A stretch of DNA of 40,454 nucleotides from a virus, in IMG/VR virus record IMGVR_UViG_3300028800_000180, positions 1 to 40,454 of that record. One strand, given 5' to 3'. The position numbers and the translations under genes were made by a program. Below the pieces are notes generated by a model that saw only the letters and a program-made list of their open reading frames with translations, was not told the origin of the DNA and ran no database searches. Each line of letters opens with the position of its first letter. Position 1 is the first letter of the stretch. Positions 5,397 through 33,293 of the stretch are shown piece by piece.

Positions 5397-7448
5397 ATGG
5401 AACTCTCCGACCAGGAAAACAGCGAAGACCTTGCAAGGCCCCTTGAGCTCAAGCGGGCCTTTGACGCATGGTTCGACTTTCATCTGAAGCCGATCATCGA
5501 TGACAACCGTAATCGGTACGAGATGATCCTGGCCGATGCCGAAGAGCGCATCTCTCGCGGGCTATCTGCTCTCCCCTCTACAAAAAGCACTTCCATCGTC
5601 GACGGCTACGTTGAAAATGCGATCTTGGAGTACAACCAGGACCCCGACGCAATCAGCTTCACCTCCCGTTCCCCAGAAAACCCACAGCGTGATAAGTTCG
5701 CCCAGATCCTGACCGAAGATTTCATCTACCGAAAGGACAACACCAGCGGTTTTCATCTCTGGCAGGAAGCAAGCCTCCGATCTGGCGCCGCCGATGGCAT
5801 CGAAGCGGCTTTTGTTCATTGGGTGCACGAGAGCTACAAGAAACCCCTCCCTGACAAGTTCGTGACCCCTGCCGGCCAGGAAGTCCCTCAGCAGATTCAT
5901 GAGCAGTACGGCGAAATGCTGGGCTCCCAGCTGGTTCCGCAAGAGAAAGATGTGATCGTCAGGGACACGTGGGTAATTGACCGCCTCATGCCGCGCCGTG
6001 ATTGCTTTTGGGATCCGAAGATTCCCTATCTCGACGTGAATCTTGGGACCTTCGCCGGGATCCTGATGCCGTTCACCCTGGACGAGATCATGAACTACCA
6101 GGCGAAGGGCGTCTTCAACCTCGACTTCACCGAAGAGGACATCGAGGGCCACCTTGCCAACACTCGGGAAGGGAATGACGCCGCGCTACAGCTGGCGAGC
6201 TTCGACTTCTCCGACGCCGAGCGTGTCGACCTGGGCGATAAGAACCGCGCCGAGGTGATGATCTTCTTCGAGAAGAAAAACTTTCAGTGGTTCGTTCAAT
6301 TCTCCATCGCCGGCAGTTTCCCGCTTTCCAGTTCCCTTCCCGTCAACGACGTTTTTTACAACGGGCGTGAGGTCAACAAGCTCCCGCTCGTGGTGGGATA
6401 CCTGAAGGGCCGGCTGTGGGATGCCACCGGTGTCGGCTTCCCCGAGGTAATCGCCCCGATTGAGGATGAGCTCAGCGATCATCGCAACAATGCGAACGAT
6501 GTGGCCAAGCAGATGGCACAGGGCGGCCGGATACGTGTGAGCCCTGACCACAACATCGACCTTGACCAGCTGGCCAACTCCCGCATTTTCGCCGCAGATA
6601 AGGACGAGTTCGAGTTTGTTCAGTTCCCGAATGGGCTGCTTGAGTCAATGCGCATGGACGATTCCCGAAACCAGGATATTGCCGCGCTTGTACCGATGGG
6701 TGTCGCCGACCGTAGCCGGCAGCTCGCCCTTAAGGGGACAACGAAAGGCCTCGGTCTCCACCAGATGCAAGACCAGGATGCCAACGCGAAGCTGGGTGTC
6801 AACCTGATGATCCGCAACCAGTCCTTCTTCATCCCGGTGCTCTCGCTGGTTGCCGAACTGACCATGGCCTACGAGACCGACGAGATCGTGCTCAAGATCG
6901 CCGCGCGCAACGCCGGGACCCAGTTGCCGACCCAGATCCGGAACGGTCGACAGATCATTGATCTCAGCGTTTTTGACTTTGAGGTGGACGTCCAGATCAA
7001 CGCCGGACTGGGCGCGACTCCTCGCTATAAGAAAGCTCAAAATTTAATGCAAATTGTTGAATTCAGGCAAAAAGCGAACATTCCCACCGACTGGCATGCT
7101 GTCGCTGGAATGTTCAACGTGCTGGCAGGGTTCAACGAGAACCAGTTTGATACCCCTCCGCCGCCACCGAAGCCACCCGAGGTTGACTACAAGGCCAACA
7201 TTAATGTGGACCTCGCGCAACTCCCCCCACAAGCCCAGATGATGCTCCTGCAGAAGATGATGACGGGCGGCATGAGCATCACGGCGAAAGTGGATGGCAA
7301 GAACCCGCAGATGCAGCGCCAGGTGAAAGAACTCGAGCAGAACGGCGGCGGCATGGCGGTTCCCGAGCGTACAGCGATGCAGATCCCCGACATGCAAGGC
7401 GCGGCCGGTGCGGCGATGTCGGCCGGGGGGCAGATGAATGGCCAGTAG
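5397..7448 (+). CDS. Portal protein
   Basis: A 683-residue protein placed directly after TerL, the usual position and length for podovirus portals of the P22/SU10 size class. It has an N-terminal helical region, a central mixed domain and a C-terminal Pro/Gln/Met/Gly-rich tail (about residues 590-683), as seen in long portal barrels. I chose ATG 5397 because GGGGGGATCA sits just upstream; a GTG at 5373 is the in-frame alternative. Twelve copies would form the DNA entry vertex and bind the terminase and, after packaging, the adaptor. The stop overlaps the next gene. The call rests mainly on synteny, length and recognisable portal-like sequence such as the ALVPMGVADRSRQLALKGTT segment. Confidence 0.85.
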   Translation: MELSDQENSEDLARPLELKRAFDAWFDFHLKPIIDDNRNRYEMILADAEERISRGLSALPSTKSTSIVDGYVENAILEYNQDPDAISFTSRSPENPQRDKFAQILTEDFIYRKDNTSGFHLWQEASLRSGAADGIEAAFVHWVHESYKKPLPDKFVTPAGQEVPQQIHEQYGEMLGSQLVPQEKDVIVRDTWVIDRLMPRRDCFWDPKIPYLDVNLGTFAGILMPFTLDEIMNYQAKGVFNLDFTEEDIEGHLANTREGNDAALQLASFDFSDAERVDLGDKNRAEVMIFFEKKNFQWFVQFSIAGSFPLSSSLPVNDVFYNGREVNKLPLVVGYLKGRLWDATGVGFPEVIAPIEDELSDHRNNANDVAKQMAQGGRIRVSPDHNIDLDQLANSRIFAADKDEFEFVQFPNGLLESMRMDDSRNQDIAALVPMGVADRSRQLALKGTTKGLGLHQMQDQDANAKLGVNLMIRNQSFFIPVLSLVAELTMAYETDEIVLKIAARNAGTQLPTQIRNGRQIIDLSVFDFEVDVQINAGLGATPRYKKAQNLMQIVEFRQKANIPTDWHAVAGMFNVLAGFNENQFDTPPPPPKPPEVDYKANINVDLAQLPPQAQMMLLQKMMTGGMSITAKVDGKNPQMQRQVKELEQNGGGMAVPERTAMQIPDMQGAAGAAMSAGGQMNGQ

Positions 7449-7788
7449 ACAGGAAGAAATCGAACGTATCGAGAGAACGCTGGAAGATCAGCGGATCATG
7501 CGCGACGCCATCAACCACCCAGGCGTCAAAATGCTTTTCCAGAAGCTGAACGAGCTCAGCGAGACGATGACCGAGAAGCAGATCAACCTTGATCCCTACA
7601 CCCAGCAGGGCGAGATCAAGCGCGCGCAAGAGTTCAGATTCATCGTCAAAAAGTTCTTTCCTCAGATCATAGAAGGCCTCGTTAACTACGATCCCGAGGC
7701 TCCAGATAAACAGGTGGCGCCGAAACGGCGCTGGTCGATATGCGCATGGTTCACAACCGCCTTCGGGCAGAAAGCGAGCACGAAATGA
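7438..7788 (+). CDS. Small helical protein between portal and scaffold
   Basis: A 116-residue charged protein overlapping the portal stop by 11 bases and the scaffold start by ATGA. The sequence is largely helical and polar (EEIERIERTLEDQRIMRD). The C-terminus is basic and aromatic. I do not recognise a family. Its coupling to portal and scaffold suggests a head-assembly role. Confidence 0.7.
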   Translation: MASRQEEIERIERTLEDQRIMRDAINHPGVKMLFQKLNELSETMTEKQINLDPYTQQGEIKRAQEFRFIVKKFFPQIIEGLVNYDPEAPDKQVAPKRRWSICAWFTTAFGQKASTK

Positions 7789-8831
7789 AGATGAAAAAAT
7801 TGCTGAAACTGATTTTGCTTTTCCCGGCAATGCTGATGCTGGGTAACCTCGAAGGACTGGACGCCGCCGCTAGTGAGGACGATGACCAAGATGCGGATCT
7901 TGGTGGCAATCTAGGCGAAGAAGGTGAGGAGGGCGCCGACGCCCCGGACGAAGAGACCGACCCGGATGCGGATCCGGAAGAAGCTGACGCCGAACAACCC
8001 GACAAGAAAGATGAAGAGGAAAACAAGGGCATCAAGCAGAAGAGCTTCGAGGAGAGGCTGAAGGAGATCGAGGAGAAGAACGAAGCCAAGATCGCCGAAG
8101 CCATCCAGAAGCTGCAGCAGCAGACCACTGAACGTGTGGAAGCTGAGAAAAAACCGTTCGTGGATCTTACCGCGGCCCAGGTCGACCAGCTGAACGGTAA
8201 CTACCTGGACATCATCGCACACAAGGCCGACTTGGAAGAGGCTATCCGCGCTGGTGATCGCTCCATGGAGACCGTCACTGCCCTCAGGGCGGCCGAGAAG
8301 TTCATCCACGATACCGAGACCTGGTATGCGGATAACGAGGCCAAGAAAGCCGAGTGGACGGAGAAGCAGGGCCAGTCGGCAAAACTGCAGGCTGAGGCTA
8401 AAGAGCGCAGCGACAGGCTTGCCACCGCTGCCGATGTGTTCCGTGAGGCCAGCAATATCCCCCAGGACGTATGGGACCAGGCTAGCGTGTGGTTCGAGAG
8501 CCAGCTCAAGGCGAATAAGATTCTCGGCCTGGAATTCGCCGACGCCTACCGCCTCAAGGGCGACATGGGCGCCGTGAAGTTCGCCCACGACTACTGCAAC
8601 GAGCACATGGGCAAAGAAGCAGAAGCAGTATTGAAACAGAAACAAGAGGCCAAAACCAAACTCGCTCCCGGTGTCACGGGTTCAAATGGGAAGACCGCAG
8701 AGGCCGACATGAAGACTTTACGGGAACTGCACGCCAAGGCCCAGAAGAGCGGGACTGAAGAAGACTTTCTGGCGTTCACAAATCTGAAGACGAAGCTCGG
8801 CATCAAAGGTTCCATGAATTCGAAGCGCTGA
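7785..8831 (+). CDS. Scaffold-like acidic coiled-coil protein with an N-terminal Sec-type signal
   Basis: A 348-residue protein between portal and capsid genes, the normal scaffold position. Residues about 30-90 are extremely acidic (Asp/Glu runs). About 90-350 is charged and predicted helical or coiled-coil, with a basic end (KGSMNSKR), as in scaffolds whose C-terminus binds capsid protein. Unusually, the N-terminus is Lys-rich followed by a hydrophobic stretch (LLKLILLFPAMLMLG) and small residues (DAAAS), like a Sec signal or membrane anchor. ATG 7785 is chosen because it overlaps the preceding stop (ATGA); 7791 is also possible and leaves the hydrophobic segment intact. Scaffold role is by synteny and composition; membrane contact is inferred. 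Confidence 0.75.
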   Translation: MKMKKLLKLILLFPAMLMLGNLEGLDAAASEDDDQDADLGGNLGEEGEEGADAPDEETDPDADPEEADAEQPDKKDEEENKGIKQKSFEERLKEIEEKNEAKIAEAIQKLQQQTTERVEAEKKPFVDLTAAQVDQLNGNYLDIIAHKADLEEAIRAGDRSMETVTALRAAEKFIHDTETWYADNEAKKAEWTEKQGQSAKLQAEAKERSDRLATAADVFREASNIPQDVWDQASVWFESQLKANKILGLEFADAYRLKGDMGAVKFAHDYCNEHMGKEAEAVLKQKQEAKTKLAPGVTGSNGKTAEADMKTLRELHAKAQKSGTEEDFLAFTNLKTKLGIKGSMNSKR

Positions 8832-8854: not shown

Positions 8855-9823
8855 ATGACCGTACCTGCCGGAACTGTACAGACCGTAAACATGGTAGGCG
8901 TCAGGGAGTCCCTCCTTGATGAGCTTTCCATCATCGCGCCGGCCATCGGCGTAACGTACCACGCACTCGGATCGGGGAAGAAGCCGGGAAATAGGAAGCA
9001 TGAATTCCTGACCGACACGATCCGTGCCGCAAACACCAACAATGCCGTGCTGGAAGGGTCGGACCCGACGATCAACGCCTCGACTCAGCCGTCCAGGCTC
9101 TACAACTACACCCAGATCCAGGAAGAGAGCTATGCGGTTTCTTCCACCTCCGGCGCCGTGAAGACTGCCGGCCGCTCCACCGAGCGTGACCTGCAGCGTC
9201 GCAAGAAGATGGAAGGGTTGATGAAGGATATCAACTGGTCCTTCATCAACGGCGTGTTAGCTCTGGGCGATGACGTGACCATTCCGTACAAGATGCGCGG
9301 CATCCTGAACTGGATCATCACCAACCTGAACATGCCGAGCGATGCAACACTGAACGCTGACGGCACCGTTACGGGCGGCACCGTGCGACCCCTTACGGCT
9401 GGGCTGATCAAGCTCACCATGCAAAACATGTACACCACTGGTTCGACCGACAAAAACAAGACCATGAAGGGCCTCTGCAACGCGATTCAGCAGGCGGCCT
9501 TCGACAACGTCGCCTCTGCCGGCGGGTCCAAAACCCGTTTCATCGACGGTTCCAAGGTTGACGACTACGTGGATGTGTACGTGACCGCTTTCGGCAAGGT
9601 CGTCACCGAACTGGACACCGCCATGCCGGTCGACGTGTTCGCCATCCTCAATATGAGCTACTGGAAGAAGGCTACGCTGGAAGCCATCGGCGAGACCAAG
9701 CTCGCAACCACCTCCGGGCTCAACGAGAAGTACCACATCACCGTCAACCATACCCTGGAAGCAAAGAATGAAGCGTCCAGCGGCAGGATCGTCGGCCTCG
9801 ATCAGAACGTCGATTACCAGTAA
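8855..9823 (+). CDS. Major capsid protein, SU10/DUF5309-like
   Basis: A 322-residue HK97-fold candidate following the scaffold. A block near residues 85-130 (NYTQIQEESYAVSSTSGAVK, then AGRSTERDLQ and a DINWSFINGV helix) resembles the conserved core of DUF5309/SU10 capsid proteins. In that family a TQI...SGTA...GR...E motif precedes a long spine helix. It has a strong ribosome site (AAAAGGAGTTAAGAA) and a strong terminator straight after, as expected for the most abundant product. Only the family resemblance is from memory; position and expression signals are visible. Confidence 0.85.
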   Translation: MTVPAGTVQTVNMVGVRESLLDELSIIAPAIGVTYHALGSGKKPGNRKHEFLTDTIRAANTNNAVLEGSDPTINASTQPSRLYNYTQIQEESYAVSSTSGAVKTAGRSTERDLQRRKKMEGLMKDINWSFINGVLALGDDVTIPYKMRGILNWIITNLNMPSDATLNADGTVTGGTVRPLTAGLIKLTMQNMYTTGSTDKNKTMKGLCNAIQQAAFDNVASAGGSKTRFIDGSKVDDYVDVYVTAFGKVVTELDTAMPVDVFAILNMSYWKKATLEAIGETKLATTSGLNEKYHITVNHTLEAKNEASSGRIVGLDQNVDYQ

Positions 9824-10520: not shown

Positions 10521-10808
10521 ATGAGCGGCAGCAGCCTTATTCTTGCAGACCATAAGATCGTCGGAGACGAGCAGATCGCCACGCACGCACAGTTCGACGG
10601 TTACATCCGCGAATTTTGCCACGAGGAGCGCAAGAACTCTGACGAGAACTGGCAGAAGGCTGACGAGGATATCAAGGCTGTTGGCCGGGTGCCTAAGGCG
10701 CTTTGGTTACTATGGGAACAGCAGGGCATCACGGAAGATGCAACCGAGCTGATGAAGGCTCTGGAACGGAACCCCGAATTTAAACGCACGAACAAGTGTC
10801 TCATCTGA
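10521..10808 (+). CDS. Hypothetical protein in the head operon
   Basis: A 95-residue acidic, probably helical protein with several Trp residues (ENWQKAD, ALWLLWEQQG). CAAAGGATGTACCC lies before the ATG. No family recognised. It lies between two head-region genes and may be a head-completion or assembly factor. Confidence 0.6.
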   Translation: MSGSSLILADHKIVGDEQIATHAQFDGYIREFCHEERKNSDENWQKADEDIKAVGRVPKALWLLWEQQGITEDATELMKALERNPEFKRTNKCLI

Positions 10809-10826: not shown

Positions 10827-11102
10827 ATGAGCACTATGGAAGAACTCGCAGGTAAATTCCGCGTCAGGGTGATCAAGCAGCTCCCCGACACACGGGTAAC
10901 AATTGCAGGCGCGCCCTTCATCAACCCTGGCCACCCTGATCATGATGGCACTCGGCACGCCGAAGAGCTAGCGGCCTATGCAATCGTTCCGGCGCATACC
11001 GTCGAAGCTCTGAAGGCGAATAACAAGCACTATATCTTCTCGGACCCGTTTACCCCTTCGGTGATCGCCGCACCGACCGACGCCGAAAAAAAAAAGGAAT
11101 AG
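10827..11102 (+). CDS. Head-region protein ending in a slippery A10 run
   Basis: In the zero frame this is a 91-residue protein with a mixed alpha/beta body (FRVRVIKQLPDTRVTIAGAP) that ends in EKKKE. Its last codons, GAA AAA AAA AAG GAA TAG, contain a 10-A run and the heptamer A AAA AAG in the phase used by the dnaX -1 frameshift. The ribosome site AAGAGAGGCAAC precedes the ATG. The -1 extension is described separately. The gene precedes the adaptor gene, a region where other phages often use programmed frameshifts, although those are usually in tail-assembly chaperones. No family recognised for the body. Confidence 0.75.
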   Translation: MSTMEELAGKFRVRVIKQLPDTRVTIAGAPFINPGHPDHDGTRHAEELAAYAIVPAHTVEALKANNKHYIFSDPFTPSVIAAPTDAEKKKE

Positions 11103-11179
11103 TCTGCGAAGTGTGCGGTAGGGCTTGCGGAAGCGATTTAGGGCTCGCAGCGCACATGAGAACGCACAAGAAGGGGTAA
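11090..11179 (+). other. -1 frameshift extension encoding a C2H2 zinc finger
   Basis: After a -1 slip on A AAA AAG (11090-11096) the frame continues from GGA 11096 for 27 codons to TAA 11177. It encodes a canonical Cys-x2-Cys-x12-His-x3-His finger: Cys codons at 11105 and 11114, and an HMRTH ending. This fills the otherwise empty gap before the adaptor gene at 11184 exactly, and no start codon with a ribosome site serves it alone. The product would be about 117 residues. Ribosomal frameshifting, transcriptional slippage on A10, or a one-base deletion are the possible explanations. Confidence 0.6.
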
Positions 11180-11183
11180 GAGG

Positions 11184-11837
11184 ATGGCGGTTGTCAACGT
11201 AGGCACGACGATTACCAAAGCGAGGACTAAGTTCCCCGGCGGAATTTCGCGGGCGCCTTTCGTCGTATGGTTCAACGAGGTGGTGCAGGAGATCCTGAAC
11301 CAGCCGCGCGTGTGGAAATTTCTGACTGAACCGATCACCCTGGCCATCGTCAACAACCAGATCACCATCCCGGCCGGCGTCTCGGAAATTGTCTCCATTC
11401 AGGTGGGCGATACGTTCTTCACGCAGAGCGATCAACTGAGTGATCAGGAAGCCGCGAAGATCGACGCGGCTTCGGACAATATCCTGCAGGCCGACAGCAC
11501 TGACCTAGTAACTCCTCCCAGCCTGCAGGGGTACACCTTGACGGCCGCAGGGGTCGTTGTGTTTCACCCGGCGTTAACTGGCACAGCATCGGTGATCGGC
11601 GAGCAAAACATCACGGCCGATTATGCCGACAGTGCGGATACCATCTTCCCGCTCGACTTCCAGGAGCTCTTCATTTTAGGCCTGCGCATGAGCTATTACG
11701 ACTTGCAGAAAGACGGCCGGTTCACCAAGGAAAATATGCTTTACCAGATGGCGATGGGGAAGGCTAAGTCATGGGACAACAGACACAAGCCTCGCCCGCA
11801 CTACAACTCACATGGCTACATCCGAGGGGGTAACTGA
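11184..11837 (+). CDS. Head-tail adaptor, SU10-adaptor-like
   Basis: A 217-residue protein with the pattern of short-tailed phage adaptors. An N-terminal helix contains WFNEVVQEILNQPRVWKF. A beta domain follows (residues about 50-140). Helices near the end include the FPLDFQELFILGLRMSYY segment and KDGRF, which resembles SU10-type and gp6-like connector proteins. It should form a ring below the portal after packaging. It ends by overlapping the next ATG. The ribosome site is AAGAGG. Family assignment is from sequence feel and position, not a search. Confidence 0.72.
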   Translation: MAVVNVGTTITKARTKFPGGISRAPFVVWFNEVVQEILNQPRVWKFLTEPITLAIVNNQITIPAGVSEIVSIQVGDTFFTQSDQLSDQEAAKIDAASDNILQADSTDLVTPPSLQGYTLTAAGVVVFHPALTGTASVIGEQNITADYADSADTIFPLDFQELFILGLRMSYYDLQKDGRFTKENMLYQMAMGKAKSWDNRHKPRPHYNSHGYIRGGN

Positions 11838-30856: not shown

Positions 30857-32176
30857 ATGACCAAACGTATCGATAAATTGACCATAGAACAGACAGCCGC
30901 TATGCCGGCATTCGCTAAACAGTGGATCGACATCGGGCTCAAGACCGGCGAAACAGACTGGGCGACGTTCGACCAGAACATGCCGATCTGCTACGAGAAG
31001 GCTGGCCTCAAGTACCCGACCCGCGTGGTGCGCGTTTCCTCCCCACTTGTGGGGGCTCTCGCCGCAAGCGTCGCAGAAGCCATCTGGAGGAAACGCCGCG
31101 ACGCTGTGCGCGACGCTGTGGACGGCGCTGTGGGCGGCGCTGTGGGCGGCGCTGTGGACGACGCTGTGGGCGGCGCTGTGGACGACGCTGTGGGCGACGC
31201 TGTGGGCGTCGCTGTGGACGGCGCTGTGCGCGACGCTGTGGACGACGCTGTGCGCGTCGCTGTGCGCGTCGCTGTGCGCGACGCTGTGGGCGTCGCTGTG
31301 GACGGCGCTGTGGGCGGCGCTGTGGACGACGCTGTGGGCGTCGCTGTGCGCGTCGCTGTGCGCGACGCTGTGGGCGACGCTGTGGGCGTCGCTGTGGACG
31401 GCGCTGTGCGCGACGCTGTGGGCGGCGCTGTGGGCGGCGCTGTGCGCGTCGCTGTGGGCGGCGCTGTGCTTTCTGCCGTTCAGATCGCCAAGAAGGCGGG
31501 TGTATCTATCGGCTGGCATTACTGGCTTGGCGGTCAATTTTGGGTAGGGGGCTGGTGGTGGGGGGCTGTTTCTTCCGTCGCGTTCTTTATGGATGTCTGC
31601 AAATTGAAATTGGCAAAAGACATCGTTGAGCGAGCCAGCGCTTATCGCAAGGTTTGCGAATCAGTCAACTACATCTGGCCTAACCGTGATTTCGTGATGG
31701 TCTGTGCCCGACCGACCAGGATCGAAAAGGATGCCGAGGGCCGGCTGCACTCACTCTCCGACATGGCCATCAAATACCCTGACGGCTGGGGGCTCCATTA
31801 CATTCACGGTGTCAGATTTGAAGATGCTGGGCTTTGGCAGTCCATCGCAGCCGGGACCCTTTCTGCTGCGGAAGTCTTCGCTATCCCCAACATGGAGCAA
31901 CGCCGAGTTGCTTACGAGTGCATGGACAAGCTGAAGATGAAGGAGCTGCCGAACTTCACCATCGTTGACCAGGTCGCAGACGATGGCTGCGGTTTCCCGA
32001 TGCAGATCATCAGTTTTACTCTCAAGGGATTCAATAGGCCTTTCCTTTTCCTCAACGGCTTCTGCCCATCCGGTGGCCGTGAATATTTCCTGGAGACGCA
32101 GCAGTCGGATTGCTGGGAAGCCAAGGCCGCGAGCTTTGGGCTCGATCGCAGCGTGGAATGGGTCGCTGAATACTAA
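30857..32176 (+). CDS. DUF6745-like protein with 31 four-residue repeats
   Basis: A 439-residue protein. Residues 1-80 are helical (KLTIEQTAAMPAFAKQWIDI). Residues about 81-204 are 31 copies of a four-residue unit X-Z-Ala-Val, where X is Arg/Asp/Gly and Z is Asp/Gly/Val. A Trp-rich segment follows (WHYWLGGQFWVGGWWWG), then a C-terminal domain with WGLHYIHGVRFEDAGLW, as in DUF6745 proteins (about residues 310-325). The repeat would form one long amphipathic helix, or a stalk. The repeats are described separately. Reading frame, ribosome site (AAAAGGGGGAATCAAA) and C-terminal conservation support a real gene. Function is unknown; DUF6745 proteins in other genomes also carry low-complexity inserts, as I recall. 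Confidence 0.75.
   Translation: MTKRIDKLTIEQTAAMPAFAKQWIDIGLKTGETDWATFDQNMPICYEKAGLKYPTRVVRVSSPLVGALAASVAEAIWRKRRDAVRDAVDGAVGGAVGGAVDDAVGGAVDDAVGDAVGVAVDGAVRDAVDDAVRVAVRVAVRDAVGVAVDGAVGGAVDDAVGVAVRVAVRDAVGDAVGVAVDGAVRDAVGGAVGGAVRVAVGGAVLSAVQIAKKAGVSIGWHYWLGGQFWVGGWWWGAVSSVAFFMDVCKLKLAKDIVERASAYRKVCESVNYIWPNRDFVMVCARPTRIEKDAEGRLHSLSDMAIKYPDGWGLHYIHGVRFEDAGLWQSIAAGTLSAAEVFAIPNMEQRRVAYECMDKLKMKELPNFTIVDQVADDGCGFPMQIISFTLKGFNRPFLFLNGFCPSGGREYFLETQQSDCWEAKAASFGLDRSVEWVAEY
31097..31468 (+). repeat. 31 tandem 12-bp repeats, coding
   Basis: 372 bases made of 31 twelve-base units, each [CGC|GAC|GGC][GAC|GGC|GTC]GCTGTG. GCTGTG is invariant in every unit even though other Ala-Val codons would do. Only the first two codons vary, from three choices each. 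Longer blocks recur (units 9-12 equal units 24-27). All six frames are free of stops, hence the long false open frames on both strands. Confidence 0.95.
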
Positions 32177-32189
32177 AAGGGGAAACTGC

Positions 32190-33293
32190 ATGACCATCAA
32201 ATACGAAGCCCGCACCCTGACGTGCGAACTGACCGAGGACGAGCTCCTCGCGCGCGGCGATGAGATGGCGAAAACCTACATCCAGGTTGCCGCCCTCGAC
32301 CTCGAAAAAAAGCGGCTCACCGCGAAGATCAAGCCCCTGGACGAGCGCATCCAGGAATTGGTGCTGATCATCGACAGCAAGCAGGAAGAGCGCCGCGTCG
32401 AATGCCGCTGGGTCTACTCCTACGACATCGGCATCAAGGCGCTGATTCGGCCCGATACCGGCGAGGAGATCGAGACCGGCAGGATCAAGGACCACGAGCG
32501 CCAGCAGCAGCTCGAGTTGGAGACGCGGGGCCGGGTTGACGAGGGTCTCGCCCTGGGCGCCGAGGAAAATCTCGACAATGAGCAGACCGTCTGCCTTAAC
32601 ACCAGCTGCCTGCGCTACGAAGCTTCCGAGCCCAACCACTGCTGCATTCTGGAATACGTGAGCGAGTGCGACAACCCGAAAGGGACCGGCGCGCCGAAAG
32701 AGGAGACCACCGATGCGAGACCTGAGACGGAAAAAGAAGAGGAAGGAAGCGAAGCGGGTGATGAGGTGGCTGGCTCCGCTCTTGGCGATGATCCTGATCA
32801 GCCGGTAAGCCTCTGTATCACCTGCCGTGGTCTGTGCGGCGACTTCACTCCCGGTACGGCCGTTACGGAGTGCCCCGGCTTCGACTGCGCGCTCGGCCAG
32901 AACCAGATCGACTGGAGGGATAACACCTGCAAGGACTGGCGCGACTGCAACTATAAGGAGAAGTGTTTCAGCCCTGCGAACGAAGAAGAGCCCGACTGCC
33001 TTTCGGAGCGGCCGGAGACCTTGGCCGATCGTATCAACCAGATCAAAACTGCGCGCGCGTCTGGCATGTCGCTGAGCGAGACTATGGCCTCAGCCATGCC
33101 GACCATCCAGGAAAAGGAGTTCACCTGCAAGATTTGCGGATTCGACGGCGGCACCAAGGTCTACTTGACCCGCCACGTTGAGCGCGAGCACAACCTCACC
33201 ATGACCCAGTACAAGAAGCAGTTCCCCGCCAGTCAGACCGCCCTGCAGCTCGCCCGCGATAAGCGCGCCAAGCTGATCAAGGGGGCGAAGTGA
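32190..33293 (+). CDS. Cys-rich protein with C-terminal C2H2-type zinc finger
   Basis: A 367-residue protein from ATG 32190 (AAAAGGGGAAACTGC before). The N-terminal 110 residues are a coiled-coil domain of the type DLEKKRLTAKIKPLDERIQEL. Residues about 125-160 and 205-265 contain several Cys groups (NTSCLRYE, HCCILEYVSEC; CITCRGLCGDF, CPGFDC, CKDWRDC), which look like metal-binding knuckles. The C-terminus (about 310-350) has FTCKICGF and LTRHVEREHNLTMTQYKKQF, a finger seen in Ros/MucR-type and some phage nuclease-associated proteins. It overlaps RusA by ATGA. Likely a DNA-binding protein of the replication/recombination set. The acidic linker (about 170-200) could mark a fusion of two genes. 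Confidence 0.72.
   Translation: MTIKYEARTLTCELTEDELLARGDEMAKTYIQVAALDLEKKRLTAKIKPLDERIQELVLIIDSKQEERRVECRWVYSYDIGIKALIRPDTGEEIETGRIKDHERQQQLELETRGRVDEGLALGAEENLDNEQTVCLNTSCLRYEASEPNHCCILEYVSECDNPKGTGAPKEETTDARPETEKEEEGSEAGDEVAGSALGDDPDQPVSLCITCRGLCGDFTPGTAVTECPGFDCALGQNQIDWRDNTCKDWRDCNYKEKCFSPANEEEPDCLSERPETLADRINQIKTARASGMSLSETMASAMPTIQEKEFTCKICGFDGGTKVYLTRHVEREHNLTMTQYKKQFPASQTALQLARDKRAKLIKGAK

Follow-up and report, generated by a model that had tools for sequence, protein, structure and literature searches.

A zinc finger in the −1 frame of a small phage gene: probable conserved recoding at an A-run beside the adaptor

Among phage structural genes, the best-known cases of recoding are tail chaperones and major capsid genes. 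In lambda G/GT, in the major head gene of Lactobacillus phage A2 (a −1 shift), and in the capsid (a +1 shift) and tail genes of Listeria phage PSA, a single gene of the structural module yields two products that have the same N terminus (PMC5009743). RNA polymerase slippage lets Thermus thermophilus dnaX, Shigella spa13, and Citrobacter tssM, each with an A/T run of about 9–11 bases, make both a plain and a C-terminally extended product (PMC5009743, PMC4256274), and the end of the spa13 extension overlaps the start of the next gene, spa32, whose expression is affected by the slippage (PMC5009743). In E. coli-type hosts, which may not represent the host of the phage studied here, RNA polymerase slips with high efficiency on runs of 9 A or T in vivo (review, PMC5009743), and slippage reaches about 20–25% at the A11 run of tssM (PMC4256274). 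E. coli dnaX undergoes −1 ribosomal frameshifting on the heptamer A AAA AAG.

The locus described here resembles the lambda, A2, and PSA genes in that a single structural-module gene would give two products sharing an N terminus; unlike them, it is a different gene with no homology to theirs, and the part added is a C2H2 zinc finger. With Thermus dnaX, spa13, and tssM it shares the length of the A-run and the pairing of a plain with a C-terminally extended product, but slippage is known in those three genes, whereas here it is proposed from sequence, for a phage gene preceding the adaptor, with a zinc finger as the extension. A sequence-only reading of this DNA, which proposed a dnaX-type shift, knew of no described case in a head-assembly region; the A2 and PSA head genes are such cases (PMC5009743). 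In the open-access literature we found no description of a zinc finger added by frameshifting, nor of such a shift in a small gene before an adaptor gene. Frameshifted phage structural genes are known, and the finger-adding arrangement before the adaptor appears to be new.

The DNA analyzed (the window) is IMG/VR virus record IMGVR_UViG_3300028800_000180, 40,454 bases, which encodes a tyrosine integrase and an S24-type repressor and looks like a temperate phage. Its head module is of the SU10/LUZ24 type, with Pfam matches to both the SU10-type major capsid protein (8855–9823; PF17236, E = 3e-60), which sets the head-module context, and the adaptor, or head–tail connector, protein (11184–11837; PF24175 SU10_adaptor, E = 8e-8); a portal match to PF23899 fell below the cutoff. 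As in podoviruses with this type of head module, the order is terminase, portal, scaffold, SU10-type capsid, small gene, and adaptor. The gene under study encodes 91 aa (10827–11102) and sits between a 95-aa gene (10521–10808) and the adaptor gene, all on the plus strand, as are the capsid gene and the A-run and −1-frame features described below. The small LUZ24 gene gp61 lies directly before the LUZ24 gene in the adaptor position and presumably corresponds to the 95-aa gene, a match made by position and by eye only. Elsewhere in the head module, ORFs 7438–7788 and 7740–8831, both called from their first start codon, overlap by ~49 bases in different frames, and the second may start further downstream. 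In the early region, ORF 30857–32176 contains a long DAVxxAVxxAV-type repeat tract (~31,050–31,500), with several frames open on both strands, that looks like a tandem repeat expansion.

The 91-aa protein comprises an N-terminal domain and ends ...DAEKKKE. Its N-terminal part gave no match in Pfam, PHROG, or the PDB (the last by profile search); the 91-aa protein had zero matches among 50,697 phage records, in which the fused form described below gave a weak match to the finger only, and no convincing match among plasmids. A structure model of the zero-frame protein had a mean pLDDT of 49, too poor for a fold search. The 3′ end of the gene reads GAA (11085) AAA AAA AAG (11094–11096) GAA TAG (11100–11102). 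It thereby contains an A10 homopolymer (11086–11095), the candidate slip site, and an in-phase slippery heptamer A AAA AAG (11090–11096), with the zero-frame stop one codon beyond the heptamer. This A10 exceeds every other A/T run in the 40,454-base record, for which about 0.11 runs of this length are expected by a first-order Markov estimate. Lysine codons in this phage are mostly AAG (211, vs 95 AAA).

The −1 frame, entered at GGA 11096, closes at TAA 11177–11179 (GIVCEVCGRACGSDLGLAAHMRTHKKG), giving a tail of 27 codons plus stop (11096–11179) and a fused product of 117 aa. Only 4 bases separate its stop from the ATG of the adaptor gene (11184). Within the tail lies a C2H2 finger, CEVCGRACGSDLGLAAHMRTH (11105–11167), with the spacing C-x2-C-x12-H-x3-H. 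The finger scores 17.1 bits against PF00096, below the curated cutoff of 25.2, and the position usually taken by the core Phe of C2H2 fingers is occupied by Cys. With all six frames counted, each simulated window yields on average 0.03 open-frame matches to the strict C2H2 motif, which comes to ~3e-6 per 27-codon tail in one frame. A looser pattern (H-x3-5-H) matches once by chance, within the adaptor gene but not in its coding frame (11624), and for that reason the motif alone is insufficient and comparison with a relative is decisive. Upstream of the first Cys codon the open −1 frame contains no ATG, GTG, or TTG, either in the window or in the relative described next, so the finger frame must be entered from the upstream gene. 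The finger is invisible to standard gene calling.

The relative, L005 (IMGVR_UViG_2894675838_000002; 41,874 bases), was reached through its capsid protein, which is 78% identical to that of the window; identity is 71% for the portal and 59% for the adaptor, and a homologue of the 95-aa gene is present. The homologue of the 91-aa gene (8289–8618 of L005; 109 aa) is 60% identical over the aligned residues, which make up the shared N-terminal part. Its 3′ end reads GTA AAA AAA AAG TAA, with an A9 run (8606–8614) that is likewise the longest A/T run of its record, the A AAA AAG heptamer in the same phase (8609–8615), and the zero-frame stop immediately after the heptamer. Despite the difference in run length, the finger lies in the same −1 frame in both phages and, in L005, in that frame only (VTSESVACPECGRECPSKLALSAHMRSHK; 22.2 bits against PF00096, also below the cutoff). 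The L005 tail extends to the adaptor start, where its TGA stop overlaps the adaptor GTG (GTGA, 8701–8704), an arrangement that suggests coupling of shifted ribosomes with adaptor translation.

The two phages have different bases at 30 of the 69 positions of the finger block but share 14 of 22 residues in the −1 frame, compared with 5 of 22 in each of the other frames, both of which contain stops; eight of the codon changes in the −1 frame are synonymous. When 30 changes were placed at random 100,000 times, none of the placements reached 14 identities, and 0.06% kept both an open frame and all four ligands. This conservation, together with the lack of a start of its own, the absence of the finger from 80 other loci, and the existence of in-frame counterparts (both below), indicates that the −1 reading is a selected coding sequence, and one independent homologue provides strong evidence for its translation as protein. 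The sequence-only reading is borne out in part: its placement of the gene, the A10 run, the heptamer and its phase, the −1 frame, and the finger agrees with the sequence throughout, the finger does lack a start, a homologue does keep both the A-run and the −1 finger, and their conservation supports its view that the −1 frame accounts for the gap ahead of the adaptor gene.

We therefore regard it as probable, from the comparison of these sequences, that a conserved net −1 recoding at the A-run yields both a short and a finger form. Ordinary decoding would give the 91-aa protein, stopping just past the lysine-coding A-run, and a fraction of expression events would gain the −1 frame at A10 (A9 in L005) to give the 117-aa form ending in the C2H2 finger. 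The chances are about even that RNA polymerase slippage is the main route. Slippage on the A-run would produce transcripts one A longer that read straight into the finger; transcripts with one A fewer or two more encode short tails of a few residues before a stop. Both runs (A10 and A9) reach the length, some 9 A/T or more where the frame changes, expected of a gene that uses RNA polymerase slippage, and a run of 9–10 A is a usual place for such slippage, a route that the sequence-only reading left out of account. A ribosomal −1 slip on A AAA AAG may contribute, and its 117-aa product would be identical.

The sequence-only reading had assigned the shift to the ribosome, and a programmed −1 frameshift of the dnaX type on A AAA AAG, with RNA polymerase slippage unimportant, is a possible but doubtful account. 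Both phages have the exact heptamer, correctly phased, and few heptamers shift more efficiently than A_AAA_AAG once a stimulator is present (PMC4066793). No convincing stimulator was found. Inspection of the window (11060–11089, GGTGATCGCCGCACCGACCGACGCCGAAAA) found no Shine–Dalgarno (SD)-like element 10–14 nt before the heptamer, and a GAGG in L005 lies only about 4 nt from it, too close to act as one. A possible hairpin in the window (11105–11166) starts about 8 nt past the heptamer, a suitable distance, but 39 of 200 shuffled sequences folded as well (z = −0.90), the corresponding z in L005 is −0.46, no better than shuffles either, and the stem is not shared. Without a stimulator, shift-prone heptamers reach at most about ten times the 0.05% background in E. 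coli (PMC4066793). Unlike E. coli dnaX, then, the window has neither an SD stimulator nor a supported stem, and its shift would extend the product where that of dnaX truncates it. Of a dnaX-type signal, the window has the heptamer in phase, lacks the SD-like element, and has a possible stem. Polymerase slippage is favored because both runs, at 9–10 A, exceed the A6G that suffices for ribosomes even though the phage prefers AAG for lysine, and because the SD-like stimulator is missing and downstream structure is neither supported nor shared. The exact heptamer phase in both phages fits ribosomal slipping as well, and both machines may act.

An error of sequencing or assembly, such that the true run length places the finger in frame in an ordinary 117-aa gene, is improbable. 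Homopolymers are the commonest site of indel errors and fingers of the same type are in frame in other phages, but two separate assemblies of diverged phages, with runs of 10 and 9, have the finger in the same −1 frame and the zero-frame stop within one codon. Lower still is the probability that the run is a phase-variable contingency locus, at which replication slippage would change the run length and switch genomes between the short and finger forms. Long homopolymers mutate easily and the run length does differ between the two phages; both genomes, however, are in one phase with the finger out of frame, and late structural genes are not, to our knowledge, usual contingency loci. Least credible is translation of the finger as a small ORF of its own, from a noncanonical start or by reinitiation past the zero-frame stop. 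That stop does lie shortly before the first Cys, and an ATA codon precedes this Cys in the window, but the ATA is not conserved, neither phage has a usual start codon there, and the conserved A-run would be left without a role.

The gene with its A-run and −1 finger has a narrow known distribution. Scans of IMG/VR with the capsid, portal, and gp10-like proteins found L005 as the sole close relative, and two scans of genome contigs, run with alignments of the capsid and the portal, added none. At 80 IMG/VR loci with capsids 27–33% identical there was no finger downstream of the capsid gene and no detectable 91-aa gene, so the finger is not a background feature of such loci; LUZ24 also lacks both, in which respect these otherwise similar head modules differ from that of the window. 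Since neither the 80 loci nor LUZ24 have the finger and gene, the arrangement is known from a single lineage with two members, the window and L005.

Very similar fingers nevertheless recur, in frame, at the C terminus of small proteins encoded in structural or packaging blocks of unrelated viruses. In virus L013 the finger protein (6001–6291) is encoded directly before the tail tube gene (PF18906); in L014 (5722–6132) and L015 the finger proteins are encoded downstream of the major head gene; and in Methanosarcina virus MetMV the protein (AZF89962.1) is encoded between the terminase and SPP1-type portal genes. Like the window product, these are small proteins of the head, neck, or packaging block with a single C-terminal CG[RK]x..S..GL..H.RSHK finger; unlike it, they carry the finger in frame, and their N-terminal parts have no clear relation to that of the 91-aa protein. 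PHROG searches with the L013 and L014 proteins returned no family. On the strength of the L013, L014/L015, and MetMV cases, we consider the C-terminal single finger on a small structural-module protein to be a recurring pattern. A small in-frame protein of L106 (5746–6090), likewise from a structural or packaging block, ends in a single C2H2 finger of near-identical look to those of L013 and L014. The C-x2-C-x12-H-x3-H ligands are kept in the window, L005, L013, L014, and L106, and the viruses with in-frame single fingers (L013, L014, and L106) are unrelated, one of them being archaeal. Matches in L003 and L004 (FINPGHPD), which fall within a large unrelated ORF, were rejected as chance, and a finger of the same look in L105 was left out of the count as belonging to a separate 320-aa two-finger protein. 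The window itself has a second, unrelated finger-like motif, CKICGFDGGTKVYLTRHVEREHNLTMTQYKKQFP, near 33126 at the C-terminal end of early-region ORF 31965–33293.

We infer that the finger form may be a minor variant of a neck-region protein that serves neck assembly, contacting DNA or a partner at the portal or adaptor; the tail of the long form is basic and presumably binds zinc. Shifted ribosomes would end at the adaptor start in L005, or 4 bases before it in the window, and by analogy with spa13/spa32 could raise adaptor translation. Tentatively, the locus might encode a neck protein in two forms, their proportion being determined by polymerase or ribosome slippage at the conserved A-run; only the shifted form would carry a DNA- or protein-binding finger, so that a single slip site would govern both how much finger form is made and how much adaptor is available while heads are completed. 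Beside the adaptor gene, an alternative frame encodes a complete zinc finger that is conserved though the DNA of the block differs at over 40% of positions, and it adds to the recurring pattern, so far unexplained, of small structural-module proteins capped by one C2H2 finger. The A-run locus offers a specific and cheap test case for ribosomal versus polymerase slippage in phage morphogenesis.
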